In this document: positions 1-64,000 of the stretch, piece after piece
Position numbering within the stretch: position 1 is the first letter of the stretch
Layout of the letters: the number at the start of each line of letters is the position of its first letter
DNA from: Solirubrum puertoriconensis
GTDB taxonomy: Bacteria; Bacteroidota; Bacteroidia; Cytophagales; Hymenobacteraceae
Assembly (NCBI RefSeq): GCF_001483135.1
Contig: NZ_LNAL01000006.1
Location: forward strand, 620,003-684,002
DNA: 64,000 bases
Reading direction: 5' to 3'
Translations under genes and position numbers: made by a program
The notes under the pieces: model-generated
Database searches by the model: none
Seen by the model: only the letters and a program-made list of their open reading frames with translations
Told to the model about the DNA's origin: nothing

Positions 1-1
1 C

Positions 2-388
2 AATACGGCCATTGTGCTTTCGGCTGATATCGTGCCTGAGCTGTTCTCGGGTTTGGCCCTAGGTGTTGGGCTGGGGCTGCTAGTTGGCAAGCCGCTGGGC
101 ATTGTGGGCGTAACGTGGCTGGTGGTGCGCATGGGGCAGGGCCAACTGCCTACCAACGTCGACTGGCGCCGGTTTATCGGGTTGGGCTTTACGGCGGGCA
201 TCGGTTTTACCATGGCCATTTTCATTGCCACGCTCTCGTACCAAAACCCAGCCGCTGTTGATTTGGCCAAGCTGGCTGTGCTTATTGGGTCGGCAGTTTC
301 AGCCATTATCGGCATGACCATTCTGGCGCCAGGGCAGCTTGAGGAAGAACCCATCGACACAGTAGAGTTTCAGGAAAAAGCCAGTTAG
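2..388 (+). CDS. nhaA: Na+/H+ antiporter NhaA, C-terminal part (5' end outside window)
   Basis: Only the last 128 residues are in the window; the reading frame is open from base 2 with no start. Hydrophobic segments with the motifs GKPLGI and GIGFTMAIFIA are typical of the last transmembrane helices of NhaA, an inner-membrane sodium/proton antiporter for pH and sodium homeostasis. The protein ends with a short acidic cytoplasmic tail (QLEEEPIDTVEF). The gene is followed by a strong hairpin shared with the convergent aldolase gene. The family call is secure; the symbol follows from the family. Confidence 0.9.
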   Translation, partial: NTAIVLSADIVPELFSGLALGVGLGLLVGKPLGIVGVTWLVVRMGQGQLPTNVDWRRFIGLGFTAGIGFTMAIFIATLSYQNPAAVDLAKLAVLIGSAVSAIIGMTILAPGQLEEEPIDTVEFQEKAS

Positions 389-396
389 GGTATTCG

Positions 397-448
397 CCCC
401 AACAAACAAGGCCCCGCAACACTGGTTGCGGGGCCTTGTTTGTTGGGG
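397..448. terminator. Bidirectional terminator hairpin, 24-bp perfect stem
   Basis: The arms 397-420 and 425-448 are perfect reverse complements around a 4-nt loop (actg). The hairpin lies between the convergent nhaA and threonine aldolase genes and can serve both strands. Confidence 0.9.
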
Positions 449-461
449 CGGCTCTTTGCAT

Positions 462-1487
462 TTAGGCGTACTGCGGTACAGCGCGCAAAGCTTCGAGCAC
501 GCGTTCAATGCCAGCGTCGTCCACATCGAGGTGGGTTACGAAGCGCACCATCTGCGGACCAAAGGCCGAGGCTTTAACGCCGAACTCGCCTAGGTGAGCC
601 AGGAACTGGTCTTCGGTAAGACCCTCGCGCAGTCGGAAAATGACCAGGTTGGTTTCGGCCGGCAATACATACTCGACGTACGGCGCCTGCTCCAGCGCTT
701 CGGCCAACTGGCGGGCGCGGCGGTGGTCGTCGGCAAGGCGCTCCACGTGGTTTTCGAGGGCGTAGAGACCAGCTGCGGCTAAATACCCGGCTTGGCGCCA
801 GCCGCCGCCCATGGCTTTCCGAATGCGCTTGCACTTACGAATAAACTCCTGCGTGCCCACCAGCACCGAGCCCACGGGCGTACCCAGGCCTTTGCTCAGG
901 CAAATCGAAATCGAGTCGAACAGCTGGCCGTAGTCTTCGCTGCGCTGGCCAGTGGCTACCAAAGCGTTGAAGATGCGGGCCCCATCGAGATGCAGCGGAA
1001 TGCTTTTGCTTTGGGCTAGCTCGGCAATTTCTTCGAGGGCCTGCCAGCTGTAGCAGCTGCCGCCGCCGCGGTTGTGGGTGTTTTCGAGGCTGATGAGGCT
1101 GGTATTGGGGTAATGCACGTTTTCCGAGCGAATGGCCGCTGCCACTTGCGCGGCCGTAAGCCGGCCCCGGTCGCCGGGCAGCAGCGCCACCGAGGCACCC
1201 GAGTGAAAGGCAATGCCGCCCACTTCCCAGAGGTAGATATGCGAGGTTTGCTCGCACACCACCTCCGACATCGGCTGCGTGTGTGCTTTGATGGCAATTT
1301 GGTTGGTCATGGTGCCGGAGGGGCAGAACAAGCCGGCCTCCATGCCGAAGCGGCTGGCACATTCGTTTTCCAGCTCCCGCACGGTGGGGTCCTCTTCGTA
1401 CACGTCGTCGCCTACCTGCGCGCAGAACATGGCCTCTAGCATGGCAGGGGTAGGGCGGGTAATGGTATCGGAGCGTAAATCAATCAT
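462..1487 (-). CDS. ltaE: Low-specificity L-threonine aldolase
   Basis: A 341-residue PLP enzyme of fold type I that splits L-threonine or L-allo-threonine into glycine and acetaldehyde. The N-terminus MIDLRSDTIT is the family signature. GDDVYEEDP (about residues 26-34) and HLDGARIFNA (about 166-175) line the active site, and the PLP lysine is K199 in SICLSKGLGTPVGS. Length is normal for bacterial LtaE, and the ATG start lies at the conserved N-terminus. The gene stands alone, convergent with nhaA. Substrate preference (L or L-allo) cannot be read from sequence. Confidence 0.93.
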   Translation of the reverse strand: MIDLRSDTITRPTPAMLEAMFCAQVGDDVYEEDPTVRELENECASRFGMEAGLFCPSGTMTNQIAIKAHTQPMSEVVCEQTSHIYLWEVGGIAFHSGASVALLPGDRGRLTAAQVAAAIRSENVHYPNTSLISLENTHNRGGGSCYSWQALEEIAELAQSKSIPLHLDGARIFNALVATGQRSEDYGQLFDSISICLSKGLGTPVGSVLVGTQEFIRKCKRIRKAMGGGWRQAGYLAAAGLYALENHVERLADDHRRARQLAEALEQAPYVEYVLPAETNLVIFRLREGLTEDQFLAHLGEFGVKASAFGPQMVRFVTHLDVDDAGIERVLEALRAVPQYA

Positions 1488-1665
1488 GGTTATTGAGGTA
1501 GAAGCACCTAGGGTGCTGTTACGGTTGCTGATGAGCTAGCCAGGCCGCTTGGCTTGGCCATTTGTGGATACCAAACTACAGCCCGGGCGCGAACTTGCTG
1601 CTATATTTGCCGCCCGAATTGGCAACAATCACTGGGCGAGGAGCAAAACGTGTCGAACTTTTGCT

Positions 1666-1673
1666 TACCTTTG
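1666..1673 (+). promoter_or_regulatory. Bacteroidota -7 promoter element TACCTTTG
   Basis: An exact TAnnTTTG match 39 bp upstream of the small basic ORF at 1713. No clear -33 TTG is seen at the usual 17-23 nt spacing, so only the -7 part is supported. Confidence 0.5.
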
Positions 1674-1712
1674 CCCCCTCATTCTGCAGAATAGACTCAA
1701 ACCGACCGCGTC

Positions 1713-1871
1713 ATGACCGTTACTCGTCTTAAGCGTAAGCACCGCAAGAACATCGCCCGCGCCAACAACAAGGTGCAGGAAATTAAAGATCTGCTCCGCA
1801 CGCCCGTTCTGAAGAACGTGGACATCGAGGAGCTGAAGGCTAGCTTCAAAAAGAACGAAGCTGCTGCCTAA
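1713..1871 (+). CDS. Small basic helical protein, 52 aa, function unknown
   Basis: A short ORF translating as MTVTRLKRKHRKNIARANNK followed by a lysine/glutamate-rich helical stretch and ending EAAA. Residues 5-20 are strongly basic and the rest is amphipathic, so nucleic-acid or ribosome binding is possible but unproven. Support for a real gene comes from an exact TACCTTTG promoter element 39 bp upstream, a tightly placed 34-bp palindromic terminator downstream, and clean codon use. It has no membrane segment or signal peptide. I do not recognise a named family. Confidence 0.75.
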   Translation: MTVTRLKRKHRKNIARANNKVQEIKDLLRTPVLKNVDIEELKASFKKNEAAA

Positions 1872-1938
1872 GTTTTAAGCCGCGGCTTCCTCCGCGGGAA
1901 GCCGAAACGGCATCCCGGCCGGTCGGCTGGTAATAGCA

Positions 1939-1972
1939 AAAAGCGCCTTGCGTGGCCACGCAAGGCGCTTTT
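1939..1972 (+). terminator. Intrinsic terminator, 34-bp perfect palindrome with T tract
   Basis: The arms 1939-1955 and 1956-1972 are perfectly complementary, flanked by A and T runs (tttgtttttt follows). It sits 68 bp after the small basic ORF. Confidence 0.9.
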
Positions 1973-1980
1973 GTTTTTTG

Positions 1981-2078
1981 TGTAGCGCGGGCTGAAGCCC
2001 GCGTTTGCTAGAGCGATAAGTATTAAACGGAGTCTGAGGATTACGCTCACGCCAACGCGGGCTGAAGCCCGCGCTACA
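1981..2078. repeat. REP/BIME-like pair of palindromic repeats
   Basis: Two 25-bp copies of a palindromic unit (core cgcgggctgaagcccgcg), at 1981-2005 and 2054-2078, are arranged head to head. Each copy is a self-complementary hairpin, and together they form a larger inverted repeat that differs only at the central bases. This is the architecture of bacterial REP doublets. A related GTAGCGCGG...CCGCGCTAC unit occurs at 14975-15004. Confidence 0.75.
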
Positions 2079-2083
2079 GCGTA

Positions 2084-2578
2084 CTATACCCGCGGGCCGA
2101 GCTCCACTGCCTGCAACTGCTCCACTTTGCCATTCTCAACTTGGAATTTGAGCAGGGTGCGCACTTTGTGAAAGCCGTGCTTGCCGGCCGCGCCCGGGTT
2201 GAGGTGCAGTAAGCCCAACTGGCGGTCGGGCATGACGCGCAAAATGTGCGAGTGGCCGCAGATGAACAGCCCTGGCCGCTCTTGCTGCAGCAGCGGGCGG
2301 GCCGGTGGCGCGTAGCGGCCCGGGTAGCCGCCAATATGGGTGATGAGCACCTTTAGGCCATTCACCTCAAAAATCTGGTGCTCGGGGCAGCGCAGACGAA
2401 TGGTACGGTCGTCGATGTTGCCGTACACGGCGCGCAGGGGCGCTACTGCCTGCAACTCGTCAAGAACTTTCTCGTGGCCTACGTCGCCGGCGTGCCATAT
2501 CTCGTCGCAGCCTTGCAGGTGGTGCAAAATGCGGTCGTCGAGGTAGGTGTGGGTATCGGAGAGCAGGCCGATTTGCAT
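2084..2578 (-). CDS. YfcE/MJ0936-type metallophosphoesterase
   Basis: A 164-residue calcineurin-like phosphoesterase. Metal-binding motifs appear in order: SDTH (about residue 8), HAGDV, GNID (GN-D/H), ITHIGG and GHSH. The start is placed at MQIGLLSDTH because the family begins directly with the first metal motif. A longer in-frame ORF adds 20 residues of unlike sequence. Homologues hydrolyse phosphodiesters or nucleotide monophosphates with manganese; the true substrate is unknown. The protein is cytoplasmic, with no signal peptide. It is transcribed toward the REP pair. Confidence 0.88.
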   Translation of the reverse strand: MQIGLLSDTHTYLDDRILHHLQGCDEIWHAGDVGHEKVLDELQAVAPLRAVYGNIDDRTIRLRCPEHQIFEVNGLKVLITHIGGYPGRYAPPARPLLQQERPGLFICGHSHILRVMPDRQLGLLHLNPGAAGKHGFHKVRTLLKFQVENGKVEQLQAVELGPRV

Positions 2579-2826
2579 GGCGGTAGCGTTGAGGTTGCAG
2601 GTGCAAAGTACGCGCGCAACAAACCTAGGGTGCCACAATGAAGTGAATATTCGGGGAGCGTGTTACCTTTCTCGCTCATAACCGTATTCCGCCTAATTGG
2701 CCGTCACACCCGGCTACTTCAGCTGGCCTTTAGCACCCACGCACCTTTCGTAATACCGAAATTAATGCTGTGTTTTGCAGCCTGCCAGACGACCATCTGC
2801 TCCCATTTTCCTTCCGACTTGCCGCG

Positions 2827-3519
2827 ATGAACGTTTTCATCAACGACATCCCAATAATCATTAAGAAGACCTCCGAAAAGGTCTACAAGCACCGCTACGA
2901 CCTCATCCTGGGGCCCGAAGACGAGTTCATCTCGAAGGACCTGGTGGGTGATGTGCTGGTGCGCGACGTTACGCCGGCTTTTATCGACCGCATGCTGCGC
3001 CTGATGGAGGTAAAAAAGCTCAAGAAGCTTACCTCGCTCACGCTCATGACGAAAAAGAAAAAAGCCCTCATCCTGCACCTCAAAGACCAGTTTAAGATTG
3101 CGAAAGCCGCTGGTGGCTTGGTGGTGAAAGAGGGATTGGTGTTGATGATCTACCGCTTGGGCAAATGGGATTTGCCCAAGGGCAAGCTCAAGAAAGACGA
3201 AGACCCCGCCGAAGGCGCACTACGCGAAGTGGAGGAGGAGTGCAACATTAAGGTTTCGTTGGGCGACAAGCTGCCCAGCACGTGGCACTCTTACGCCTAC
3301 AACGGCAACAAGATTCTAAAGAAGACCAACTGGTACATAATGCAGTGCCTCGATGATACATTGATGAAGCCGCAGGCCGAAGAATACATCGAAGAAGTGC
3401 GCTGGATGCAGCCCCAGGAGGCGCTTAAAGCCCTCGATGAGTCATACGCCTCCATTTCGTTGGTGGTGCGCCACTACTTAAGTGAGGTGGCTGGTGCTGC
3501 TACCGTCAGTAACAAGTAG
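2827..3519 (+). CDS. NUDIX hydrolase with N-terminal extension
   Basis: A 230-residue protein: an N-terminal lysine-rich domain (residues 1-90) and a NUDIX fold (about 95-220). The NUDIX box runs from G119 to I141 (GKLKKDEDPAEG then ALREVEEECNI). It keeps the catalytic REVEEE glutamates but has Asn where the consensus has the last Gly. NUDIX enzymes cleave nucleoside diphosphates linked to another group; the substrate is not identifiable here. The start MNVFINDIP at 2827 was preferred over an upstream in-frame codon. A lipoprotein gene follows 51 bp downstream on the same strand. Confidence 0.85.
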   Translation: MNVFINDIPIIIKKTSEKVYKHRYDLILGPEDEFISKDLVGDVLVRDVTPAFIDRMLRLMEVKKLKKLTSLTLMTKKKKALILHLKDQFKIAKAAGGLVVKEGLVLMIYRLGKWDLPKGKLKKDEDPAEGALREVEEECNIKVSLGDKLPSTWHSYAYNGNKILKKTNWYIMQCLDDTLMKPQAEEYIEEVRWMQPQEALKALDESYASISLVVRHYLSEVAGAATVSNK

Positions 3520-3529
3520 CGTAAGCTTG

Positions 3530-3553
3530 CCGGGGCGGCCGCATTGGCCCCGG
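3530..3553 (+). terminator. Weak GC hairpin after the NUDIX gene
   Basis: Arms ccggggc (3530-3536) and gccccgg (3547-3553) with a 10-nt loop. No T run follows, so termination is uncertain and it may be only an intercistronic hairpin. Confidence 0.35.
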
Positions 3554-3570
3554 ATTCCTGCGTGTAGCGT

Positions 3571-4059: not shown

Positions 4060-4070
4060 CTTGGTCCCGT

Positions 4071-4117
4071 AAACCCCGAACGCGGAACACCCTAGGGTGC
4101 TTCCGCGTTCGGGGTTT
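4071..4117. terminator. Bidirectional terminator; inner loop carries CCTAGG
   Basis: The 17-bp arms 4071-4087 and 4101-4117 are exact complements. The loop holds the palindrome caccctagggtg (4088-4099), which contains CCTAGG. It separates convergent genes. Confidence 0.85.
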
Positions 4118-4136
4118 GCTAAGGGTTGCTGAGCAC

Positions 4137-4619: not shown

Positions 4620-5525
4620 TTACTCGCAGAGGTGCAGGCTGTACAACTCAAAGTAGCGGTACTCAAACACGTCGTTGAGGCGGTAGCTATAGCTGAGGTC
4701 GTAGGGGCGGTTGCCGAAACGCACGTTGCGGATGTACTTGCGCAGCACCGAAAACAGCTCCGAATCGTGCATCAGGTCGCCGTACACCGCTACGGGGTCG
4801 TCGTCGGGGTTCAGGCCAAGCTCCTGCATCACCAAGATGACGTAGTAAATAAAATCCTCGGGCGTGCTGAAGTTGAAAACGTTGCAGAACAGCGGGCGTT
4901 TTTCGCGCACCACGGCAATGGTAAGCTCGTGCGGGCCCACGCTCAGAAACAACCTAGGCGGGCCCTGCCGCTCGCTTTGGTGCACCACCCCCTCGAGCAA
5001 GGCGCTGGTTTGGTGCAGCAGCTTTTGCTGCGGATAAGTGCGCTCAAACCACTCGGCCAAGGCCTTTTCAATCGAGAAAACGCTTACTACCTCGCGGTTG
5101 GGGTGCAAAAAGCGGCGCACCACCTCGTGTTGCGGATCGAGCTGGTGGTGCAGGCGCAGGTAAGCGGCCTCGTCGCCATCGCGGAACAACGGGGCGGGCA
5201 ACAGCGTGAAATTGCGGTTTTGCACGGCCAGGCGCACGCGGTTCCACCCGGGTCGGCCCACTAGATCGTGGTGGCTGGCCAAGGCTTGCAGTTGGCCGGC
5301 TAAGGAGGTAGCGGGCTCAGGAGCATAGTCTTCGAGCACCACAAACTTGTTGCGGCGCACGTCGGCTACGCCCACGCGCAAGCCGTGGGCACCCGCGGTT
5401 AGGTACAGGTTGTAGCCCGCGAGGTTGGCGGTATCAAGGGTTTCGTCGCGCAGGCGGTGCAAGGCGGTAGGCAAAGCCGCAGTGGCAACGAAATCGGCAG
5501 AATCGGCGTGAGACACAGGCAGCAC
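4620..5525 (-). CDS. DUF3822 family protein
   Basis: A 301-residue cytoplasmic protein of the Bacteroidota-specific DUF3822 family, recognised from its overall pattern: an N-terminal actin/ASKHA-like beta pattern, FSIEKALAEWFERTY in the middle, then PRLFLSVGPHELTIAVV and FNFSTPEDFIYYV toward the C-terminus. The biochemical function is unknown. It sits 15 bp upstream of coaD; in related genomes DUF3822, an RsmD-like methyltransferase and coaD are often neighbours, and the methyltransferase is absent here. A near-consensus -7 element (TACCTTTA on the coding strand, 5544-5551) lies 19 bp upstream of the start. Confidence 0.8.
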   Translation of the reverse strand: MLPVSHADSADFVATAALPTALHRLRDETLDTANLAGYNLYLTAGAHGLRVGVADVRRNKFVVLEDYAPEPATSLAGQLQALASHHDLVGRPGWNRVRLAVQNRNFTLLPAPLFRDGDEAAYLRLHHQLDPQHEVVRRFLHPNREVVSVFSIEKALAEWFERTYPQQKLLHQTSALLEGVVHQSERQGPPRLFLSVGPHELTIAVVREKRPLFCNVFNFSTPEDFIYYVILVMQELGLNPDDDPVAVYGDLMHDSELFSVLRKYIRNVRFGNRPYDLSYSYRLNDVFEYRYFELYSLHLCE

Positions 5526-5576
5526 AGCAGAACTAATATCCGCTAAAGGTAAGCAGGCCGCCGTTTTATGCCGCTA

Positions 5577-6080
5577 TTAGCGCAGCCGGAGTTGCGGAAT
5601 ATACGCGTCGTCGGCGCTGATGAGGTCGCGCAGAATGGGGTGCACTTGCCGCGGCGGCAGCTTCACCAGCTCGCGCGGCGAAAGCCAGGCCAGCTGCGTG
5701 AGCAACTGCTTATCGGGGTGATGCTCGGGGTCGGAGCCTAGGCGCGGCAGCGCTTTGGGGTCGGTGGGCAGTACTTCAAAAAACATTTCGAGGGCTTGCA
5801 GCCGGTCGCCGTGGTACTCGTGCAGGTGCAAAAAGCGTCCAACTTGTACTAGCAGGCCAGTTTCTTCTTGAAACTCGCGCGCCACGCCCTCGCGCAGGGT
5901 TTCGCCAAACTGCCACCCGCCGCCTGGCGGCGACCAAAACGGTTCGTCGTTGGCCAACAGGCCCCGATGCGCAGTCAGAAGCAAGGAACCATCGTGCACG
6001 AGCAGGCCGCACACGCGCACGCGGGCACGTTCGGTGTAGGCTTGCAGCAACGATTCGGGTGAGGCGGAGGAAACAGGCAT
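5577..6080 (-). CDS. NUDIX hydrolase
   Basis: A 167-residue single-domain NUDIX protein. The NUDIX box starts at GGGWQFGETL and continues REGVAREFQEETGLL, a full match to GX5EX7REUXEEXGU. The fold begins at about residue 20 (VRVCGLLVHDG). The HRGLLANDEPFWSPPGG segment resembles ADP-ribose/CoA-type or MutT-like members, but the substrate cannot be fixed. It lies between DUF3822 and DUF4126 genes on the same strand, with gaps of 51 and 39 bp, so a loose operon is possible. Confidence 0.88.
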   Translation of the reverse strand: MPVSSASPESLLQAYTERARVRVCGLLVHDGSLLLTAHRGLLANDEPFWSPPGGGWQFGETLREGVAREFQEETGLLVQVGRFLHLHEYHGDRLQALEMFFEVLPTDPKALPRLGSDPEHHPDKQLLTQLAWLSPRELVKLPPRQVHPILRDLISADDAYIPQLRLR

Positions 6081-6119
6081 AGGTGTGGTAAGCGGAGCGG
6101 TAACAGGCCCCTAAACCTA

Positions 6120-6728
6120 TTAAATGCCGCTATGGTTGGGGCTGCTGGTCGAAAAATTTGCTTGCCGGCGCTGCCGCCAACGCCGCAACCGTCTGCCGAT
6201 GAATACGATAGCAGCTATTGCTACACCGGCTACCAGCAGCGGCAAAAGTAGGCCCAATACCGAGCCTACAATTGCCAAGGTGTTCTCGATGGTGGCCAGC
6301 ACGGGGTTGCCCAAGCCGCCAGTAGCAGCCGTTGAGCCCGTCCGTAGCACGGCCGTGCCAGTTTGGATAAGCCCCGCCGTGCCGCCGCCTACCAACACGC
6401 CCAAGCCCCAGCGCAGCACCGGGTTTAGCTCGGGCAAAGCAGCCGTCATCAGCAACGTGCCCGCTACAAACGAAGCCGGCGTGGTAAGCGAATCGAGCAA
6501 ATTATCGACCACCGGAAAGTAGTAGGCCAGCATTTCGGCCAGGGTGGCGGTGCCCAGCACACCTAAGGCGGCCCAAGTGCCCAGCCACGCAAAGCCCGGC
6601 GAAGGCGCCAAGTAGCCGGTGCGGTAAGCAATGCTGGCCGCCAACAGCGGCACAAATACCCGAAAGCCGCTGCACGCTGCCAAAGCCAAGCCCAACGCGC
6701 CCGAAATAAGATAGTCCGACAGGTTCAT
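6120..6728 (-). CDS. DUF4126 membrane protein
   Basis: A 202-residue integral membrane protein with about five hydrophobic helices (residues 5-30, 45-68, 88-105, 110-130, 150-178) and a basic C-terminus (GRRLRRWRQRRQ). It matches DUF4126: an early SGFRVFVPLL motif and a glycine-rich AVLVGGGTAGL-like region in the third quarter. Function is unknown; it may transport or scaffold in the inner membrane. It is divergent from the hotdog thioesterase gene. Confidence 0.82.
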   Translation of the reverse strand: MNLSDYLISGALGLALAACSGFRVFVPLLAASIAYRTGYLAPSPGFAWLGTWAALGVLGTATLAEMLAYYFPVVDNLLDSLTTPASFVAGTLLMTAALPELNPVLRWGLGVLVGGGTAGLIQTGTAVLRTGSTAATGGLGNPVLATIENTLAIVGSVLGLLLPLLVAGVAIAAIVFIGRRLRRWRQRRQANFSTSSPNHSGI

Positions 6729-6776
6729 GATTATCAGGGATGAAGCCTGCGAAAAGATACGTGCTTTGGGTGCTGA

Positions 6777-6808
6777 TTGGCGAAGGCCGACCTAGGGCGG
6801 TACCTTTG
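6777..6808 (+). promoter_or_regulatory. Bacteroidota promoter TTG-N21-TACCTTTG
   Basis: A -33 TTG at 6777-6779 and an exact -7 element at 6801-6808. The last G is 6 nt from the ATG at 6814, so transcription would start at or next to the start codon (leaderless mRNA). Confidence 0.65.
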
Positions 6809-6813
6809 CGGCA

Positions 6814-7272
6814 ATGTCTACTTCGCATACCACTGCCCCCACCGACGAACTCACGGCGCGTATTCGTCGCAAGCTGGAGCGCCAGCACTTTATGCACCTC
6901 ATCGGTGCCGACCTCACCACCATCGAGCCCGGCCGCGTGCAGGCCGAACTCGACCTAGGCAAGCAGCACCAGCAGCAGCGCGGGTTTGCCCACGGCGGCC
7001 TCGTAGCCACCATGGCCGACCTCGTAGCCGGCTTTGCCGGCGTTACGCTCATCCCCGACGACCACGGCCTCGTAACCGCCGAGCTGAAAGTAAGCTACCT
7101 GCACCCCGGCCTAGGTGATAAGCTCATTGCCACGGGTTGGGTGCTGAAAGGCGGCCGCCGCTTGCAGTTCTGCGAAGCTGAAGTGCGCGCTTTCGGCGGC
7201 AACAACCCCGAAGAAGGCTTGCTGATAGCGAAGGCTACGGCCACAATGGCTATCATCGAACCTGCTGGCTAA
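6814..7272 (+). CDS. PaaI-type hotdog-fold thioesterase
   Basis: A 152-residue hotdog protein of the PaaI/YigI-like group. It has the signature GFAHGGLVATMADLVAGFAG at about residues 63-82 (HGG loop and central helix, with Asp as the likely catalytic residue), then the beta-strands TAELKVSYLHPG and KATATMAII. Such enzymes hydrolyse acyl- or aryl-CoA thioesters in the cytoplasm, but the substrate is unknown. The start is supported by a promoter -7 element ending 6 nt upstream. The next gene begins 11 bp after its stop. Confidence 0.88.
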   Translation: MSTSHTTAPTDELTARIRRKLERQHFMHLIGADLTTIEPGRVQAELDLGKQHQQQRGFAHGGLVATMADLVAGFAGVTLIPDDHGLVTAELKVSYLHPGLGDKLIATGWVLKGGRRLQFCEAEVRAFGGNNPEEGLLIAKATATMAIIEPAG

Positions 7273-21271: not shown

Positions 21272-22339
21272 ATGGCTTTGCGTCTTCGTTACTCGCACCG
21301 CGCGTTGCGCTTCAACTTTCCGGCCCGCACCTCGCGCGGGGCGCTTACCGAGCACGTAGCCTGGTACCTGCACCTCTCGGATGATGCGGCGGGCATTGAA
21401 GGCATTGGCGAAGCGGCGCCGCTGGCCGGGCTCAGCCCCGATTACCGCCCCAATTTTGAGACGCGCCTGCAGCGCCTGTGCGAGGAATTCAACCACCTAG
21501 AGCTTGCCGAGGTACCCGCCAACTGGCTGCAGCTGGTGGAGCCCGAATGGCCCGCGTTGCGCTTCGGCCTCGAAACGGCGCTGCTCGATTACCAGCGCGG
21601 CGGCCGCCATCAGCTGTTCGACAACGCCTTCAGCCGCGGCGAAGCAGGTGTACGCATTAACGGTTTGGTATGGATGGGCGATGCCGCGTTCATGCAGGAG
21701 CAAATTCGGAAAAAACTGGCCGACGGTTACCGCTGCCTGAAAATGAAGATTGGCGGCATTGATTTCGAAACGGAGTTGGCCTTGCTGCGCAGCATCCGCC
21801 AGGTTGCCAGCCCCGCCGAGCTGGTGCTGCGTGTGGATGCCAACGGCGCGTTTGCCCTGCCCGATGCCCAGCGCAAGCTCGAGCAATTGGCCGAGTTTGC
21901 GTTGCACTCCATCGAGCAGCCCATAAAAGCCGGGCAGTGGCAATCCTTGGCCGCGCTGTGCCGCACCTCGCCCGTGCCCATCGCCCTCGATGAGGAGCTG
22001 ATTGGCGTAACCGACCTAGGGCAGCAGCGCATGTTGCTCGAGCAGGTGCAGCCCGCCTACGTGGTGCTCAAGCCCACGCTGCTGGGCGGCTTGTCCGCTG
22101 CGGGGCAGTGGATTGCCGAAGCTACCCGGCGCAACATTGGCTGGTGGATGACCTCGGCCCTGGAGTCGAATGTGGGCCTGAACGCCATCAGCCAGTACAC
22201 GGCCGAGTACCCCGTGGGCGATTTTGCACAGGGGTTGGGCACTGGCCAACTCTACCACAACAACGTGGCCAGCCCGCTGCAGGTGGCTGGCGGCCATTTG
22301 CACTACAACCCGATAGCGAGTTGGGAGCAGCCTAACTAA
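21272..22339 (+). CDS. menC: o-Succinylbenzoate synthase (enolase superfamily)
   Basis: A 355-residue enolase-superfamily enzyme. The catalytic KxK is in CLKMKIGG, metal ligands are in RVDANGAF, SIEQPI and ALDEELIG, and the second-half lysine is in VLKPTLLGG. TSALESNVGLNAI closes the barrel. It dehydrates SHCHC to o-succinylbenzoate in menaquinone synthesis, which fits Bacteroidota respiratory chemistry. A dipeptide-epimerase role is less likely from the motif set. The true start is MALRLRYSHRAL, 26 codons after the ORF start and 26 nt after a promoter element. Confidence 0.9.
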   Translation: MALRLRYSHRALRFNFPARTSRGALTEHVAWYLHLSDDAAGIEGIGEAAPLAGLSPDYRPNFETRLQRLCEEFNHLELAEVPANWLQLVEPEWPALRFGLETALLDYQRGGRHQLFDNAFSRGEAGVRINGLVWMGDAAFMQEQIRKKLADGYRCLKMKIGGIDFETELALLRSIRQVASPAELVLRVDANGAFALPDAQRKLEQLAEFALHSIEQPIKAGQWQSLAALCRTSPVPIALDEELIGVTDLGQQRMLLEQVQPAYVVLKPTLLGGLSAAGQWIAEATRRNIGWWMTSALESNVGLNAISQYTAEYPVGDFAQGLGTGQLYHNNVASPLQVAGGHLHYNPIASWEQPN

Positions 22340-26992: not shown

Positions 26993-28675
26993 ATGTTCAA
27001 AAACACGATTACCAACCTCGGTCGCATTAGCCAAGTGGTGGAGGTGCTGCTGCGCTATGGCTTCGAAGATGCCGTAACCACCACCGCACTGCGCCGGCTG
27101 GTGCCCGAGCGGCAGCGCCGCAGCTGGCAGCACGGCTCGCAGTCGGTATTCGAGATGTCGCGGTGGGAGCGAGTGCGCATGGTTATAGAGGAGCTGGGCC
27201 CCACGTTCATCAAGCTGGCGCAGGTGCTCAGCAACCGCGCCGATTTGCTGCCCCAGCCCTTGGTTGATGAATTTGCCAAGCTGCAGAGCAGCGTACCACC
27301 CTTCGACAGTACCGTGGCCCGCCAAATTGTGGCGCAGGAGCTGGGCCGCCCCATCGAGGAGGTGTTCAGCGAGTTCGACGACGTGCCCCTAGGTTCGGCC
27401 TCCATTGGGCAGGTGCACCGCGCCCGCCTGATAGAGGGCGACGAGGTGGTGGTGAAGGTGCAGCGCCCCGATGCGCGCGACAAAATCACCACCGACCTCA
27501 GCTTGCTGCGCGAGCTGGTGCGCCTAACCGGTGGCTACTTGCGCCGCCAAGGCATCAGCAACCCGCAGGACATTGTGGAGGCCTTCGAGCGCAGCATGAT
27601 GCAGGAGCTCGATTACACCTCGGAGGCGCGGGCCATGGAGCAGTTCCGCAAGCTCTACGCCGAGTACCACACGTTTTACGTGCCCGAGCCGCACCGCAAC
27701 CTCAGCACGGCCAAGGTGCTCGTCATCGAGTTTATCAGCGGCTGTAAAATCACTGATAAAGACCAGTTGCTGCGCTGGAACCTCGACCCCGCCACGGTGG
27801 CCGAAACCGGCATGGATATTTACCTGACGCAGATTTTCGAGTTCGGGATTTTCCACGCCGATCCGCACCCCGGCAACGTGCTGGTGCGCCCCGATGGCAG
27901 CATTGTGCTCATCGACTTTGGCATGGTGGGCCGCCTTACTAAGCAGCAGAAGTACGCGTTTGCGGGCGTGTTCATTAGCATGGGGCAACAAGATGCCCGC
28001 GGCATGGCACTCAACTTCCGGCGACTAGCCCTTACCTCGGATATCCGCGACATGCGCTCCTTCGAGGCCGAGTTGCAGCAGCTCATCGACGACTTTACTG
28101 GGCTCGATGTGAAGGAAATGAGCATGAGCGCCCTAGCCGAGCGCCTGCAAGGTGTCATCTACCGCTACAAGCTGCAAGTGCCCGGCTCGGTGTTCTTGAT
28201 TTTGCGGGCGTTGGTAATCCTCGAAGGCATTGGCAAGGTGCTACACCCGGCTTTCAACACCTTTGAGTTTGTGCGCCCTTATGGCCGCCGGCTGATTTTG
28301 GAGCAGTACTCCATGAGCAACATCAGTGCCGAGCTGCAGTACACCGGGCAGCAGCTGCTGGCCCTCATGTACACGCTGCCCACCGATTTGCGCCAGATTG
28401 TGCGCAAACTCTCCAAAGGCGATTTGCGCGTGCAGGCCCAGCTTTCGGGCTACGCGCCGCTGCTCAGCACCGCCGAGAAGCTGGTATCGCGCACCATAAT
28501 CACACTGCTGGCGGTAGCGTTTCTGTTGTTCTCGGGCTTGTCGTTGCTTGGTAATTACCCGACTGGACAAATGCCTTATTATCGCGGCCTGCCAGCCGTA
28601 ACGTGGTTTGGATTAGGTGCCACGGCATTTTGGCTGATGGTGTTGTTTATCATAACCATCAGAAAGGAAAAGTAG
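26993..28675 (+). CDS. UbiB/ABC1/ADCK-family atypical kinase
   Basis: A 560-residue membrane protein of the UbiB family. The canonical KxGQ motif appears here as KLAQ (K74-Q77, in TFIKLAQVLSNRADLLP), so the Gly is replaced by Ala. The ATP-binding loop is GSASIGQVHRA, and catalytic motifs are HADPHPGNVL and LIDFGMVGR. Two C-terminal transmembrane helices are predicted (about 500-555). UbiB proteins act in quinone metabolism or lipid transport; Bacteroidota make menaquinone, so the partner is uncertain. The ATG at 26993 is preferred over an upstream TTG. Confidence 0.88.
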   Translation: MFKNTITNLGRISQVVEVLLRYGFEDAVTTTALRRLVPERQRRSWQHGSQSVFEMSRWERVRMVIEELGPTFIKLAQVLSNRADLLPQPLVDEFAKLQSSVPPFDSTVARQIVAQELGRPIEEVFSEFDDVPLGSASIGQVHRARLIEGDEVVVKVQRPDARDKITTDLSLLRELVRLTGGYLRRQGISNPQDIVEAFERSMMQELDYTSEARAMEQFRKLYAEYHTFYVPEPHRNLSTAKVLVIEFISGCKITDKDQLLRWNLDPATVAETGMDIYLTQIFEFGIFHADPHPGNVLVRPDGSIVLIDFGMVGRLTKQQKYAFAGVFISMGQQDARGMALNFRRLALTSDIRDMRSFEAELQQLIDDFTGLDVKEMSMSALAERLQGVIYRYKLQVPGSVFLILRALVILEGIGKVLHPAFNTFEFVRPYGRRLILEQYSMSNISAELQYTGQQLLALMYTLPTDLRQIVRKLSKGDLRVQAQLSGYAPLLSTAEKLVSRTIITLLAVAFLLFSGLSLLGNYPTGQMPYYRGLPAVTWFGLGATAFWLMVLFIITIRKEK

Positions 28676-31025: not shown

Positions 31026-32774
31026 TTACTGGAGTTGCATTTCCTGAATGATCTGCTTAATGCGGCCATCCAGCTGCTGCTGGGCTTGCTCGAAATCGGC
31101 GCCGTTGCCGAAAGGCTGCTTCAGGCTGAAGTAGAACTTGATTTTAGGCTCGGTACCCGAGGGGCGGGCCGACACCTTGGAGCCATCTTCGGTGAGGAAC
31201 TGCAGCACGTTGCTACGCTCCAACTCAATGGACTGCTCTTGGCCGGTGCGCAAGTCGCGGGCAACTTGCTGCTGGTAGTCGAGCAGCTGCACCACGGGAG
31301 AGCCACCTAGGGTGGCGGGCGGGTTCTGGCGCAGCTGGGCCATCATTTCCTGAATTTCCTCGGCGCCGCGCTGGCCTTTCTTGGTCAGCGAAATCAGATC
31401 TTCTTTGTACAGGCCGTAGGTGCGGTACATCTGCACCATTTCCTCGTACAGGGTGCGGCCTTGGTCTTTGGCAACGGCGGCCATTTCGGCAATCAGGCAG
31501 CAAGCCGAAACGGCGTCTTTGTCGCGTACGAAATCGCCGATCATGAAGCCGTAGCTTTCCTCGCCGCCGCCGATGTAGTAATGGCCTTCGTTGCGGGCCT
31601 CTAGGTCGCGGATGATGCCGGCGATGTACTTAAAGCCGGTGAGCGTTTGGTAGGAGCGGATGCCGTAGTGCTTGGCCACGTCGCCGAGCACGTCGCTCGT
31701 CACGATGGTGTACACAATGTAGTCCTTTTCCTGATCGAGCTTGCCGGCTTGCTGGCGGGCCGATACGAGGTAGTGCGTAAACAGCGCGGCGGTTTGGTTG
31801 CCGTTCACGAGCACCCATTCGCCCTGCGTGTTCTTCACGCCGATACCCACGCGGTCGGCGTCGGGGTCGGTGGCAATTACGATGTCGGCGTCGAGCTGCT
31901 TGGCTTGGTCGAGGGCCATTTGCATGGCTACTTTCTCCTCCGGGTTCGGCGACTTTACGGTGGGGAAATTGCCATCGGGCGTGGCCTGCTCCTGCACAAT
32001 GTGGATGTTGTCGAAGCCGAAGCGCTGCAGCGCCTTGGGCACCATGGTAATGCCGGTGCCGTGCAGCGGCGTGTACACGATTTTGAGGTCGTGCTGGCGC
32101 TTAATGGCATCGGGGTTGATGCTCAGCTTAGCCACCTCGCCTAGGTACGCGTTGTCAAGCTCTTCGCCGATGATGTGAATGCGCGATGAATCGGCCGCGA
32201 ACTTCACTTCGTCCACGGAGTGGATGGCGTTTACCTCGCGGATGATGTTTTTGTCGTGCGGAGCTACTACCTGAGCGCCGTCGTTCCAGTACACTTTGTA
32301 GCCGTTGTACTCCTTGGGGTTGTGCGAGGCCGTAACCACGCAGCCGCTGTGGCAGCCTAGGTGCCGGATGGCGAAAGACAGCTCGGGGGTGGGGCGGAGT
32401 GCCTCGAATAGGTACACCGTAATGCCGTTGGCCGAGAAAATGCCGGCTGCGGTTTCGGCGAAGGTGCGCGAGTTCAGGCGCGAGTCGTGGGCAATGGCCA
32501 CCTTGATTTCTTCGCCCGGAAACTGCTGCAGCAGGTAGTTGCACAGGCCCTGCGTGGCCATACCTAAGGTGTAGCGGTTCATGCGGTTCGAGCCCACGCC
32601 CATGATGCCGCGCAAGCCGCCGGTGCCAAACTCCAGGTCGCGGTAAAAGGCGTCGCTCAGGGCTTCGTCGTCCCCGGCTTCTTGCAGGCGGCGGATTTCG
32701 GCCTTGGTTTCGTCGTCGTAATTGCCGCTAAGCCAGGTGCTGATTTTTTGCTGGATGTCAGAAGAGAGAGGCAT
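31026..32774 (-). CDS. Phosphoglucomutase / phosphomannomutase
   Basis: A 582-residue phosphohexomutase with all four domains. The phosphoserine is S150 in VVTASHNPKEYNGYK, metal binding is in ATDPDADRVGIG, the sugar-binding loop is GGGEESYGF, and the phosphate-binding SARPSGTEPKIK is near the C-terminus. Length fits the pgcA-like group (alpha-phosphoglucomutase). It interconverts glucose-1- and glucose-6-phosphate (or the mannose pair) for glycogen and surface polysaccharide. The symbol is withheld because substrate preference is not visible. Confidence 0.93.
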   Translation of the reverse strand: MPLSSDIQQKISTWLSGNYDDETKAEIRRLQEAGDDEALSDAFYRDLEFGTGGLRGIMGVGSNRMNRYTLGMATQGLCNYLLQQFPGEEIKVAIAHDSRLNSRTFAETAAGIFSANGITVYLFEALRPTPELSFAIRHLGCHSGCVVTASHNPKEYNGYKVYWNDGAQVVAPHDKNIIREVNAIHSVDEVKFAADSSRIHIIGEELDNAYLGEVAKLSINPDAIKRQHDLKIVYTPLHGTGITMVPKALQRFGFDNIHIVQEQATPDGNFPTVKSPNPEEKVAMQMALDQAKQLDADIVIATDPDADRVGIGVKNTQGEWVLVNGNQTAALFTHYLVSARQQAGKLDQEKDYIVYTIVTSDVLGDVAKHYGIRSYQTLTGFKYIAGIIRDLEARNEGHYYIGGGEESYGFMIGDFVRDKDAVSACCLIAEMAAVAKDQGRTLYEEMVQMYRTYGLYKEDLISLTKKGQRGAEEIQEMMAQLRQNPPATLGGSPVVQLLDYQQQVARDLRTGQEQSIELERSNVLQFLTEDGSKVSARPSGTEPKIKFYFSLKQPFGNGADFEQAQQQLDGRIKQIIQEMQLQ

Positions 32775-59916: not shown

Positions 59917-59940
59917 GCGGTAGGTATTGGCATGTTAGCC

Positions 59941-60002
59941 ATTAGGGCTTAGGCTTAGGAGGCGGAGATATATTCCGGCCAGCCTAATACCTAAGCCCTA
60001 AT
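59941..60002 (-). repeat. Inverted repeat downstream of iscU
   Basis: 13-bp arms attagggcttagg (59941-59953) and cctaagccctaat (59990-60002) with 36 nt between. It could end or process the iscS-iscU mRNA. Confidence 0.6.
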
Positions 60003-60014
60003 GCCTGAACCCTA

Positions 60015-60431: not shown

Positions 60432-60452
60432 GACGGACTTAAAGTAGTTTAA

Positions 60453-60536
60453 GAGTTTTGAGTTTAGGAGTTTGTGAGTTCAAGAGGGGGAGAAGTGCTG
60501 CTATAGCAATTCATGCATTCCCAAACTCAAAAACTC
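60453..60536 (-). repeat. Imperfect inverted repeat upstream of iscU
   Basis: GAGTTTTGAGTTTAGG (60453-60468) and CCCAAACTCAAAAACTC (60520-60536) pair with one bulge and a near-A/T-rich arm. It lies in the iscS-iscU intergenic region. Confidence 0.45.
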
Positions 60537-60547
60537 ACCAACTGATC

Positions 60548-61762
60548 TTAGTGTTCGGCCCACTCGATAGAGTTGAGGTCGATGCCTTCTTTGAACATCT
60601 CCCACAGCGGCGACATCTCGCGGAGCTTTGTTACAGCTTCTTTTACGTGGCCGATGGCGTAATCGATTTGCTCATCGGTAGTGAAGCGCGATAGACCAAA
60701 GCGCAGCGAAGAGTGCGCCAGGTCGTCGCTCAGACCCAGGGCCTTAAGCACGTACGAAGGCTCCAACGAAGCCGAAGTACAGGCCGAGCCCGACGAAACG
60801 GCTAGGTCTTTCACACCCATCATCAGGCCTTCACCTTCCACGTACTTAAAGGAGATGTTGGTAGTGTGCGGCAGGCGGTGTTCGCGCGAACCGTTTACGT
60901 AGCTTTCTTCCAGCGTCAGCAACTCGCGCTCCAAACGGTCGCGCATCGCAGCGATGCGCTGGGTGTCGGCGTCCATATCCAGGCGGGCTAGCTCGCAGGC
61001 TTTGCCCAAGCCCACAATGCCGGGCACGTTGAGGGTGCCCGAGCGCATGCCGCGCTCGTGGCCGCCGCCGTCCATTTGAGCGGTTACCTTCACGCGCGGG
61101 TTCTTGCGGCGTACGTACAGAGCACCGATGCCCTTGGGGCCGTACATTTTGTGGCCCGAAAACGACATCAAATCAATGCCGTCGGCGATTACGTCGACGG
61201 GAATTTTGCCCACCGATTGGGTGCCGTCGGTGAAGAACAGCGCACCGTGCTTCTTGGCAATAGCCGAGATTTCGCGGATGGGCTGAATCACGCCGATTTC
61301 GTTGTTGGCATACATGATGCTCACCAGAATGGTCTGGGGTGTCATGGCTGCTTCCAGCTCGTTCAGGTCGATGAGACCCTCGGCGTTAACAGGTAGGTAA
61401 GTTACGCGGGCACCCAGTTTCTCGAGGTGCTTGCAGGTATCGAGCACGGCTTTGTGCTCAGTAGTGGCGGTGATGATGTGGTTGCCCTTCTGAGCATACA
61501 TCTCGAACACGCCTTTGATAGCAAGGTTATCCGACTCGGTTGCGCCCGAGGTGAAGATGATTTCCTTGGGGTCGCAGTTGATTAGCTGCGCAATTTGCTC
61601 GCGGGCATAATCCACGGCTTCTTCGGCTTGCCAGCCAAAGGCGTGGTTGCGCGAGGCAGCGTTGCCGAAATGCTCGGTGAAGTAAGGCAACATGGCCTCC
61701 AACACGCGCGGATCGAGCGGGGTGGTGGCGTTGTTGTCGAGGTAAATGGGCAGCTTGAGCAT
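60548..61762 (-). CDS. iscS: Cysteine desulfurase IscS
   Basis: A 404-residue PLP enzyme providing sulfur from cysteine. It has His104 ([10 protein letters not shown]), the PLP lysine K205 ([12 protein letters not shown]) and the catalytic cysteine C328 ([14 protein letters not shown]), and the IscS-type N-terminus [16 protein letters not shown]. Size and C-terminal loop fit the IscS/NifS group. The start is MLKLPIYLD at 61762; a longer ORF begins at 61873. A near-consensus -7 element (61783-61790) is 21 nt upstream. Confidence 0.95.
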
Positions 61763-61840
61763 AATGCTTTCTATTGTCGGCGTAAAGGTAGCTAGCGGAG
61801 AATGATTCGCCACTAGAACAGCAAAGTTGACGCGTAGGTT

Positions 61841-61848
61841 TACTTTTG
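61841..61848 (+). promoter_or_regulatory. -7 element TACTTTTG upstream of the epimerase gene
   Basis: Matches TAnnTTTG, 67 bp before the ATG at 61915, in the divergent region with iscS. The -33 part is not evident. Confidence 0.45.
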
Positions 61849-61914
61849 CTCCACAAAAGTAGACACAATCCAAATAAGCTCGGCATAGCGGCCGCAGCCT
61901 TTATCTGAACCCTC

Positions 61915-62340
61915 ATGTTTACCAATCTGGAACACCTAGGCTTAGCCGTAAACGACCTCGAAGCGGCCACTACGCTTTACACTACGTTGCTCGGGATGGA
62001 GCCTTACAAACGCGAAACCGTGGAAAGCGAAGGCGTGGATACGGTGTTCTTTAAAGTAGGCGGCTCAAAGATTGAACTGCTAGGTGGCACCACGCCCGAA
62101 AGCGCTATTACCAAGTTTGTGGCCAAGAAGGGGGAAGGTATTCACCACGTGGCGTTTGAAGTGAGCGACATCAGGGCTGAGATGCAGCGCCTGCGCGAAG
62201 CGGGGTTTACGTTGCTAAACGAGCAGCCCAAACGCGGCGCCGATAACAAGCTGGTGTGCTTTGTGCACCCCAAGAGCGCACACGGCGTATTGGTAGAGCT
62301 CTGCCAGGAAATTACCTCTTCGGATCTGGAGGTCGACTAA
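61915..62340 (+). CDS. mce: Methylmalonyl-CoA epimerase
   Basis: A 141-residue VOC-fold enzyme interconverting (R)- and (S)-methylmalonyl-CoA. NLEHLGLAVNDLEAATTLY with His7, KIELLGGTTPESAITKFVAK, GIHHVAFEVSDI and VELCQE supply the four metal ligands. The gene would serve propionate or branched-chain breakdown; the mutase is not in this window. ATG 61915. Confidence 0.93.
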   Translation: MFTNLEHLGLAVNDLEAATTLYTTLLGMEPYKRETVESEGVDTVFFKVGGSKIELLGGTTPESAITKFVAKKGEGIHHVAFEVSDIRAEMQRLREAGFTLLNEQPKRGADNKLVCFVHPKSAHGVLVELCQEITSSDLEVD

Positions 62341-62348
62341 CTTCTTTT

Positions 62349-62924
62349 ATGAACTACTTTCAACAGGAGGTTGAAGCAGCCGTGGATGCGCTGCTGATGC
62401 AGCTGGTCATTTTGTACCCCTCCGATACGGTATGGGGGATTGGTTGCGATGCGGAGGTGCCCCGAGCGGTTGAGAAAGTGCATAAACTAAAGCAACGACC
62501 AGGCGAAAAAGGCTGTATTATATTGGTAGCCGACGAAGCTATGTTTGCTCGCTACGCCGAGCAAGTGCCCGACAACCTAGGCCAACTGCTAGCCGAGCAG
62601 CAGCGCCCTACTACTTACGTGGTGAAGGGCAGCCGCTTGGTGGCGCCCAACCTTCTGGCTGCCGACGGTACCATTGGCCTGCGCGTGGTGCGCGGCGACG
62701 AGTTTACCCACAAAGTGGTGCGGCGGCTAGGCCACGGACTGGTCTCTACCTCCGCGAACATCAGTGGGCAACCCACGCCGGCTATTTACAAGGAAATTGA
62801 CCCTGCCATTGTGCGCGGAGTCGACCATGTGGTAAACTGGCGGCAAGACGACGAAAAGCGCTCGGAACCCTCACGCATAGTACGTGTACTGGCCAATGGT
62901 TCGCTCGAGTTGTTACGCGATTAG
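62349..62924 (+). CDS. Sua5/YciO/TsaC-family threonylcarbamoyl-AMP synthase
   Basis: A 191-residue enzyme of the YrdC/Sua5 domain: LYPSDTVWGIGCDAEVPRAV, KLKQRPGEKGCIILV, TYVVKGSRLVAPNL, GHGLVSTSANISGQPTP. It makes threonylcarbamoyl-AMP for tRNA t6A, or is the YciO paralogue; the short length favours a TsaC-type single domain. The start is the ATG at 62349, 8 bp after mce, so the two may be co-transcribed. Confidence 0.9.
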   Translation: MNYFQQEVEAAVDALLMQLVILYPSDTVWGIGCDAEVPRAVEKVHKLKQRPGEKGCIILVADEAMFARYAEQVPDNLGQLLAEQQRPTTYVVKGSRLVAPNLLAADGTIGLRVVRGDEFTHKVVRRLGHGLVSTSANISGQPTPAIYKEIDPAIVRGVDHVVNWRQDDEKRSEPSRIVRVLANGSLELLRD

Positions 62925-63362
62925 GACTCGGCTACAGCAGCATGCGCATAGTTTCATAGCTATGCCTTGAGCAAAAATGCTTCTCACCGTTAGCAACGCT
63001 GACCGTTGGAATTGCGGGGCAGAGCACGTACAGGCGGCAGGTGCGTACTTGCAATTAGTCTCCTTTGCACTTCAGCATAGGTATTAAGCCCACCAACAGC
63101 GTCGCTACGCGCAAACCGAACAGCAAACGGACGAGGAAGGCTGCTTCACAAAAAGTCAAACGGCACTGATGAGGGAAGGCTAGGATCATCTCACACGTGT
63201 TTTGAACCGACCCGTGCAGGCACACAGCACTCTAGCGCTTGCTTTAACTGCCTGAAGTCGAAACGTACAAGCCGCCGGATGGATTGCAATGCAAGCCCGA
63301 TAACAAGCGGCCCTATAGAGCAGGGGTATGGTTGCTAAACCGGCGTTGCCGAACTTTGCGGC
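62925..63362 (+). other. 438-bp intergenic region before cca
   Basis: No ORF of coding character and no recognisable RNA. It holds a small palindrome near 62945-62964 (gcatag...ctatgc) and, at its right end, a -7-like GAACTTTG (63351-63358) that ends 5 nt before the cca ATG. A structured RNA cannot be excluded by eye. Confidence 0.5.
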
Positions 63363-64000
63363 ATGAAACACCCCCAGTTACCCGACCTTTTTTTGTTTCG
63401 CACCATAGCCGAAGCGGCTCAGGAACTGGGCTACCCAGCATTTGTAATCGGCGGTTACGTGCGCGACCTAGCGCTGGAGCGCCCCAGCAAAGATGTGGAC
63501 GTGGTGTGCGTGGGCGATGGGATTACCCTGGCGCAAGCGGTCGGCCGTAAGTTACCCAACCGCCCCCGCGTAACCGTGTTCAAGAACTTTGGCACGGCCA
63601 TGTTGCCCACGCCCGAAATAGTGCTGGAGTTTGTGGGTGCCCGCAAAGAAAGCTACCGGGCCGAATCGCGCAAACCGGAGGTGCAGGCCGGAACCCTCGA
63701 GGAAGACTTGGCTCGCCGCGACTTCACCATCAATGCCCTAGGCCTGAGCCTGAACGCCGACGACTTCGGTACGCTCGTTGACCGCTATAACGGCATACAG
63801 GACCTGCAGGATAAGATTATCCGCACGCCGCTCGATCCGGATATCACTTTTTCCGACGACCCATTGCGCATGATGCGGGCCGTTCGGTTTGCCACGCAGT
63901 TAAACTTCGACATCGACCCCGATACTTTTGATGCCATCGGTCGAAATAAGGAACGCATCAAGATTGTATCGCAGGAGCGGATTACCGACGAGCTGAACAA
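63363..64000 (+). CDS. cca: CCA tRNA nucleotidyltransferase, N-terminal part (3' end outside window)
   Basis: The frame from ATG 63363 is open to the window edge (212 codons). It has the class II nucleotidyltransferase signature VIGGYVRDLALERPSKDVDV, then ARRDFTINALGLSLN and DDPLRMMRAVRFATQLNF, typical of CCA-adding enzymes and PcnB. It adds CCA to tRNA 3' ends. The rest is cut off, so PcnB cannot be fully excluded, though the neighbours do not suggest it. Confidence 0.9.
   Translation, partial: MKHPQLPDLFLFRTIAEAAQELGYPAFVIGGYVRDLALERPSKDVDVVCVGDGITLAQAVGRKLPNRPRVTVFKNFGTAMLPTPEIVLEFVGARKESYRAESRKPEVQAGTLEEDLARRDFTINALGLSLNADDFGTLVDRYNGIQDLQDKIIRTPLDPDITFSDDPLRMMRAVRFATQLNFDIDPDTFDAIGRNKERIKIVSQERITDELN

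Follow-up and report, generated by a model that had tools for sequence, protein, structure and literature searches.

The CCTAGG excess of Solirubrum puertoriconensis and the different repeated words of related Hymenobacteraceae

In the genome of Solirubrum puertoriconensis (Hymenobacteraceae), a stretch of 64,000 nucleotides (GCF_001483135.1, contig NZ_LNAL01000006.1, positions 620,003 to 684,002; hereafter the window) carries the palindromic hexamer CCTAGG many times. What could write a single short word so often into a chromosome and keep it there? We found that the excess is real and not compositional, and that CCTAGG is one dialect of a family-wide habit of accumulating different words. 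A process of unassigned kind seems to write or keep these marks. The window's genome (G000) was compared within its genus (8 genomes), where two others (G004 and G007) are also rich in CCTAGG, these three being called carriers, and with 204 genomes of the family.

Size and shape of the CCTAGG excess

The window holds exactly 81 copies of CCTAGG, in agreement with the approximate count of an initial annotation, which had also put the expectation from composition at about 20. The base counts give the same figure, and Markov models of order 1, 2 and 3 give fewer still (13.7, 10.3 and 16.3, respectively). The maximal-order model (58.1 expected) was disregarded: most occurrences of CCTAG and CTAGG belong to CCTAGG itself, which makes this model uninformative. 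In the whole genome (4.80 Mb), the genome-wide count that the annotation had called for, there are 6212 copies (about 1.3/kb) vs 136 of the reversed word GGATCC, used as control. The sampled stretches of this genome other than contig C4 have 1.17-1.60 copies per kb, within the range of 0.5-2.5/kb seen for highly iterated palindromes (HIPs).

The 61 genes of the window, which are our own codon-score predictions and not curated annotation, contain 48 copies vs 6.1 ± 2.3 in 300 synonymous shuffles (z = 18); the control palindromes in the same shuffles gave z values of -2.9 (GGATCC), -0.2 (GCTAGC), +2.7 (CCATGG) and -2.5 (CCCGGG). Across 204 kb of the genome, 171 of the 182 coding sites read xxC-CTA-GGx and the remaining 11 CCT-AGG, the two readings that had been claimed from the window and that account for every coding site. 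Leu-Gly pairs preceded by C have CTA as their Leu codon in 171 of 274 cases, other Leu-Gly pairs in 29 of 238, and this preference, together with the shuffles, bears out the proposal that synonymous codon choice is driven by the site. In the same 204 kb, the density is about twice as high outside predicted genes (2.26/kb) as inside (1.11/kb).

The enriched unit is mostly asymmetric, being ACCTAGG(G/C) or its reverse complement around the palindromic core, with no strong extension beyond it in this genome. Among 283 sites in 216.5 kb, exactly one A/T arm is present in 250, two in 9 and none in 24. Independent flanks would give, by our own arithmetic, about 63 sites with both arms and 78 with none, far above the values found, so the word is asymmetric. 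Counted on either strand, ACCTAGGG accounts for 140 of these sites, ACCTAGGC for 91, ACCTAGGA for 19, ACCTAGGT for 9 and others for 24. Codons do not explain the asymmetry, since exactly one arm was also seen in 35 of the 40 noncoding sites printed (of 89). The flank bias first noticed in the window is therefore real and stronger than described. As for the resemblance to a highly iterated palindrome, the word is highly iterated, but only its core is palindromic, and relatives use non-palindromic words. Specificity is sharp: CCTAGG is raised 34-fold over its low level in relatives of the genus, and words one letter off change 0.6-2.1 fold. Five of the nine two-armed ACCTAGGT sites fall in a single 20-kb stretch (L002, G000:C6:200001-220000).

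Probable gain of the word in one clade and other words in the family

In the genus, CCTAGG has 6212, 5678 and 5325 copies in G000, G004 and G007, and 123-249 in the other five genomes (hereafter low relatives). CTAG is avoided in these five (observed-to-expected ratio 0.12-0.27), as the initial annotation had supposed to be usual. Within the aligned part, identity to the window is 85% for G004, 87% for G007 and 77-80% for the low relatives, from which, rather than from a tree, the gain of the word is probably to be placed on the stem of the three-species clade. Sites without aligned sequence are omitted from the orthologue comparison and denominators therefore differ, 71 of the 81 being aligned in G004 and in G007. 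CCTAGG is retained at 48 of 71 places in G004 and at 51 of 71 in G007, where other hexamers with four G/C have a mean retention of 0.48 and 0.54; it ranks 24 of 342 and 39 of 373, respectively, that is, well kept and not exceptional. The low relatives have it at 0 of 37 (G001), 1 of 40 (G002), 1 of 15 (G003), 0 of 46 (G005) and 0 of 18 (G006) aligned places.

Across the three carriers the word is present in all three at 37 aligned places, in two at 25 and in one at 31, so that sites come and go. Where a low-relative consensus was available (31 sites), 13 were one step from CCTAGG, 11 were two steps and 7 three or four. The central T/A came from C (21) and G (13) and the outer C mostly from G (12); the sites thus arise through a variety of substitutions, including transversions, and not from one mutation chemistry. 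At coding sites the carriers keep Leu-Gly in 80 of 82 comparisons, vs 192 of 213 at other Leu-Gly pairs. In the low relatives Leu-Gly is found in 73 of 118 comparisons at coding sites and in 210 of 289 at other Leu-Gly pairs (p = 0.03); an amino-acid change may thus have accompanied the origin of some sites.

Over the 204 family genomes, CCTAGG reaches at least 2000 copies in 12, 507-1209 in 9 and 54-468 in 183. We scanned k-mers in 29 family genomes (20-kb stretches) and in larger samples from 14 (G018 and G024, with about 1.3 and 1.6 kb, were omitted), and found that other species accumulate words of their own, 6-10 bp long and present at about 1-2 per kb (Table 1). Together with the word of the carriers they form the dialect groups G000/G004/G007, G072, G030/G123/G036, G043/G137, G019/G044 and G154. 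AAGTATA and CCTACCC are not palindromes, and all the named words contain a TA step, which may be chance. In genus g6 (probably Pontibacter), 23 of 50 genomes have at least 2000 forward-strand copies of AAGTATA (up to 5911), with near equal reverse-strand counts, and the reversed control has about 130-320 per strand in those 23. These other words are less sharp than CCTAGG. In G154, words one letter off AAGTATA rise by as much as 2.8-fold, and in G043 one such neighbour of CTAGGCCA rises 39-fold.

GGTCACC and GAGACAA in G138 are weak. No strong word was found in the 20-kb stretches of G001, G002, G003, G032, G040, G060, G064, G087 and G118, nor in 80-100 kb of G001, G002 and G005. Two candidates, ACGCTCTG in G006 and CTAAGCGC in G005, were dropped as words, being mostly local clusters (about 7624-10813 in L030 for the former; about 8683-8776 in L029 for the latter and its reverse complement) and repeats of another kind. 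G019 also has overlapping or tandem CTACCCTACC (L035, L096-L105; 32 seen vs 0.4 expected), uneven and leading-strand biased. G088 and G104 have the highest CCTAGG counts (8806 and 8591), and no single word stands out against the pooled genomes in their 60 and 41 kb. CTAG avoidance is gone there (L015, L129-L132; observed-to-expected ratio 1.41 and 1.09), CCTAGG and GCTAGC both being raised. GGATCC is nearly absent from many genomes of genus g4 (e.g. G113, G121, G023, G026, G082 and G084); 32 of the 204 family genomes have 10 copies or fewer, two of them zero, a scarcity that looks like restriction-site avoidance.

Among the matches listed in a scan of the phylum, 61 loci were tested and 19 others set aside (below 15 kb or N-rich), and six of those tested pass p < 1e-7.5. 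Convincing are two Pontibacter loci, with 55 and 43 copies of AAGTATA in 21.7 kb each, and one Spirosoma locus with ACGTATC 23 times; Larkinella, Mucilaginibacter and a Bacteroidales metagenome-assembled genome are borderline.

The variance/mean of word counts per 20-kb stretch lies below the Poisson value in six of nine genomes (G000 0.22, G007 0.15, G123 0.18, G154 0.38, G043 0.51 and G030 0.02) and above it in G004 (1.12), G072 (1.45) and G019 (3.35); for other hexamers in the same stretches, checked in seven genomes, the medians are 0.98-1.12. No overall evenness is left when the nine genomes are pooled (chi-square about 53.5 on 53 degrees of freedom), and the lower-tail p of 0.001 obtained without G019 comes from removing that genome after its uneven counts were seen. 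The test also omits the plasmid-like stretch of G123 and contig G000:C4. Close pairs are rarer than chance, with 11 spacings below 50 bp vs 19 expected and 48 below 200 bp vs 69. Two contigs hold very few of the words. One is G000:C4 (12.5 kb; 0.16/kb), which bears genes for plasmid replication and transfer. The other is G123:C2 (190 kb; 0.10/kb vs 2.10-2.45 in a 20-kb sample of it), which is plasmid-like by its size and word scarcity only.

Table 1. Location of the CCTAGG sites, of words found in relatives and of genes mentioned in the text.
Feature	Location or sample	Strand	Evidence
81 CCTAGG, dispersed, mostly in ACCTAGG(G/C) or reverse complement	Window 1..64000; starts 58, 589, 1507, 2624, 4091, 4136, 4953, 5737, 6791, 6954, 7110, 7460, 9360, 10308, 10514, 10640, 10787, 11773, 11975, 12017, 12607, 13564, 15236, 17219, 17526, 17858, 18080, 18646, 20253, 20741, 21055, 21189, 22015, 22495, 23169, 25308, 26166, 26921, 27388, 29449, 30463, 30808, 30877, 31306, 32140, 32356, 32920, 33175, 33599, 34711, 35398, 35523, 35613, 37578, 37623, 38686, 38896, 39418, 41402, 42162, 43043, 43655, 44722, 44798, 45926, 46217, 47037, 47208, 48324, 50328, 54546, 56257, 56662, 57671, 58154, 58370, 58775, 59489, 61935, 62576, 63737		Sequence count, flanks, orthologous sequence
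Site kept in three carriers: ACCTAGGG in window, G004, G007; ACCCGCGC, AGCCAGCC, ATGCCGCC, AGCCGGCG, AGCCGGCC in five low relatives	Window 22014..22021	+	Orthologue alignment
Site one step from ancestral-like state: GCCTAGGT (= ACCTAGGC on - strand) in window, G004, G007, G003; GCCCAGGT in G001, G002, G005, G006	Window 32355..32362	-	Orthologue alignment
Window-only site: CCCTAGGT; CCCTGGGT in G004 and G007; CGCTGGGC in five low relatives	Window 27387..27394	-	Orthologue alignment
CCCTAGGG (a palindrome) in G072	100 kb		64 seen, 3.1 expected
AACCTAGGT in G030	60 kb		30 seen, 1.3 expected
ACCTAGCT and ACCTAGGT in G123	140 kb		67 seen, 8.9 expected; 45 seen, 8.6 expected
AGTGGCCTAG in G043 (G137 alike, G129 and G041 weaker)	120 kb		47 seen, 0.2 expected
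CCTACCC in G019 (G044 alike)	220 kb		273 seen, 39 expected
AAGTATA in G154	220 kb		214 seen, 24 expected
N6_N4 methylase gene beside SmaI-like nuclease gene, 12.5-kb plasmid	L007 (G000:C4) 5493-6386; 6408-7271	+; -
DUF5689 protein with weak Fn3-like domain, MutS2-MurB interval, three carriers	L246 5256-6290; L247 5037-6068; L248 15899-16900	-

Candidate processes behind the word

The excess might be put down to base composition, to the usage of codons or amino acids or to neutral drift, given a GC-rich DNA with many Leu-Gly pairs. The synonymous shuffles, the higher density outside genes and the more than 20-fold difference between congeners leave such an origin with practically no chance, however, and the first and last of these contradict the drift that the initial annotation had listed. 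A methylation or restriction site, also listed there, is not supported either. Avoidance is expected of a type II restriction site, and CCTAGG is about 4-fold above composition in its host genome. According to the HIP model, as in cyanobacteria, an orphan methylase would mark the word and methyl-directed mismatch repair would create and keep it. The density and the sporadic, lineage-specific alternates do resemble HIPs (PMC4390886). Against this model, none of the four methylase Pfam families that we searched in 23-24 genomes occurs in all three carriers (PF00145 in G007 only, PF01555 in G000 and G007, PF02384 in G004 and G007, PF02086 in none), in a first-look profile search that did not include other families (e.g. 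MT-A70 and Eco57I) and can overlook family members, the DUF5689 protein of G007 being one that escaped it. A methylase was rejected as the explanation on this result. Moreover, the single methylase match of G000 adjoins the SmaI-like nuclease gene on C4 (Table 1), and several words of the family are not palindromes, so we consider the HIP model quite unlikely. SmaI cuts CCCGGG, and this word is mildly low in the genes of the window (8 seen vs 16.2 in shuffles).

A host-encoded, sequence-specific enzyme of repair, nicking or recombination could also act without uptake, by favouring fixation of the word when DNA is replicated or repaired. The all-or-none specificity for CCTAGG, the likeness of both strands and the general rise of CTAG in G088 and G104 are consistent with it. 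We nevertheless regard such an enzyme as an unlikely driver, considering that one-letter-off words lack the depletion that their conversion by an enzyme might cause, that the two plasmid-like contigs escape, and that Vsr was found in 6 of 28 genomes with no pattern, among the carriers of the genus in G007 but in neither G000 nor G004. Species differ in their Chi words, which are short and abundant. The words described here resemble them in these respects and could be recombination hotspots read by lineage-varying AddAB/RecBCD-type enzymes, and GGGTAGG in G019 is leading-strand biased (164:81). This bias is only about one standard deviation above that of words with equal G-C difference (0.67 vs 0.55 ± 0.10), and the counts are balanced for ACCTAGG in G000 (98:96), those of TGGCCTA in G043 and AAGTATA in G154 being 104:112 and 110:82. 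A Chi site was rejected for the window's word on its lack of leading-strand polarity, and a Chi-like role of the words is very unlikely.

We tentatively prefer another possibility: a highly iterated word specific to this lineage, with CCTAGG as its core, has built up chromosome-wide and is being kept, most likely because cells take up self DNA preferentially and without type IV pili. As the driver we infer a fast-evolving protein, which would recognise the word in duplex DNA and promote its build-up. A pilus-free competence machine, as in Riemerella, would prefer self DNA bearing the word, such DNA would be taken up and recombined more often, and the word would spread until most fragments hold a copy. 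The uptake sequences of Neisseriaceae form dialects between related species. Here, self-DNA uptake is suggested by thousands of dispersed, strand-symmetric words, several of them non-palindromic, that differ between related species; by densities of about 1/kb on both strands without polarity, a trait of uptake sequences that the balance of ACCTAGG in G000 illustrates; by counts more even than Poisson in six of nine genomes; by the gain of sites through several kinds of substitution; and by the near-absence of words from G000:C4 and the sampled part of G123:C2. In addition, Riemerella is described as competent without pilus homologues (PMC8459023, PMC7965970).

Other results weigh against self-DNA uptake. 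The platform of the type II secretion system or type IV pilus (PF00482) was found in 4 of 204 family genomes and in none of the 12 with at least 2000 CCTAGG, for which reason pilus-borne uptake was rejected. Uptake words frequently form inverted close pairs near gene ends, and no such frequent pairs were seen. The specificity for CCTAGG is sharper than that known for uptake words, three of the nine genomes are not evenly spaced, with no evenness when all are pooled, and many family genomes show no word. The receptor candidate considered below is also associated with the word in one group and tends the opposite way in another.

According to PMC8459023, competence of R. anatipestifer needs ComEC, DprA, ComF and RecA, and also four proteins unlike known machinery, one of them with DUF5689. 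We therefore searched DUF5689 in the 204 genomes. A small form (a frame under 500 amino acids, our own cut) is present in 6 of 9 high-CCTAGG genomes of g4 vs 11 of 111 others (p = 2e-4, uncorrected for kinship), and in 3 of 23 high-AAGTATA genomes of g6 vs 9 of 27 others. G087 has the small form, and no word was found in its 20 kb. At the three loci examined (L216, L224 and L243) the gene sits between SusD-like and MetallophosN phosphoesterase genes, unlike the Riemerella pair, and this group may have a role in scavenging phosphate or nucleic acids. Between MutS2 and MurB, G000 encodes another DUF5689 protein (344 amino acids), and G004 and G007 each have its homologue at that position (Table 1); the profile search missed the one in G007, so that its non-detection in the low relatives does not establish absence.

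It is conceivable, if somewhat doubtful, that many dialects of uptake words exist in Hymenobacteraceae, and perhaps in other Cytophagales, with a pilus-free competence machine behind them. To our knowledge, DNA uptake words are known from two families only; if the proposal is true, they would extend beyond these two, and a DNA receptor of a new kind would be indicated. In the open-access literature, we found no earlier report of a CCTAGG excess in Hymenobacter or of uptake words in Bacteroidetes. Judged by their titles, the papers found on Hymenobacter and natural transformation do not treat its competence, and those listed on highly iterated palindromes deal with cyanobacteria or methods. Thousands of sites gained in one clade and near-absent in its sisters suggest a strong evolutionary force without assigned cause. 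The family constitutes a natural experiment, with carriers and non-carriers in one genus, several words and complete or nearly complete genomes. It can separate methylation from pilus-borne uptake, since neither machine was found in the window's genome by searching the four methylase families and PF00482, the one methylase match being that beside the SmaI-like nuclease.

Comparison with known systems

Cyanobacterial HIPs comprise HIP1, GCGATCGC, and its alternates, and at least one putative methylase is described for every genome with such a word (Elhai 2015, PMC4390886); the main text of that paper mentions neither CCTAGG nor Hymenobacter nor Bacteroidetes. As with HIPs, the words reported here are short, occur genome-wide at about 0.5-2.5/kb and differ in sporadic lineages, but the unit is asymmetric, several family words are non-palindromic and no methylase of the four searched families is present in all three carriers. 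The word was not classed as a HIP because we looked for a palindromic unit and, within those four families, for a methylase shared by the carriers, and found neither. With Chi it shares being short, abundant and species-specific, but not strand polarity.

The uptake sequences of Neisseriaceae and Pasteurellaceae are closer: they too occur about once per kb, on both strands, include non-palindromic words and differ in dialect among relatives. They differ in the pilus platform, which was not found in the carriers, in their frequent close pairs and in a less sharp word specificity. Since the pilus platform was not found and uptake is a proposal, we do not class CCTAGG as a classical uptake sequence. 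In Riemerella, R. columbina prefers its own DNA, but the k-mers listed for it as putative uptake words are plain AT-rich strings (PMC7965970). The points that Riemerella has in common with the carriers are the phylum (Bacteroidota), the lack of pilus homologues, the platform not having been found in the carriers, and a preference for self DNA in R. columbina such as we propose for these genomes.

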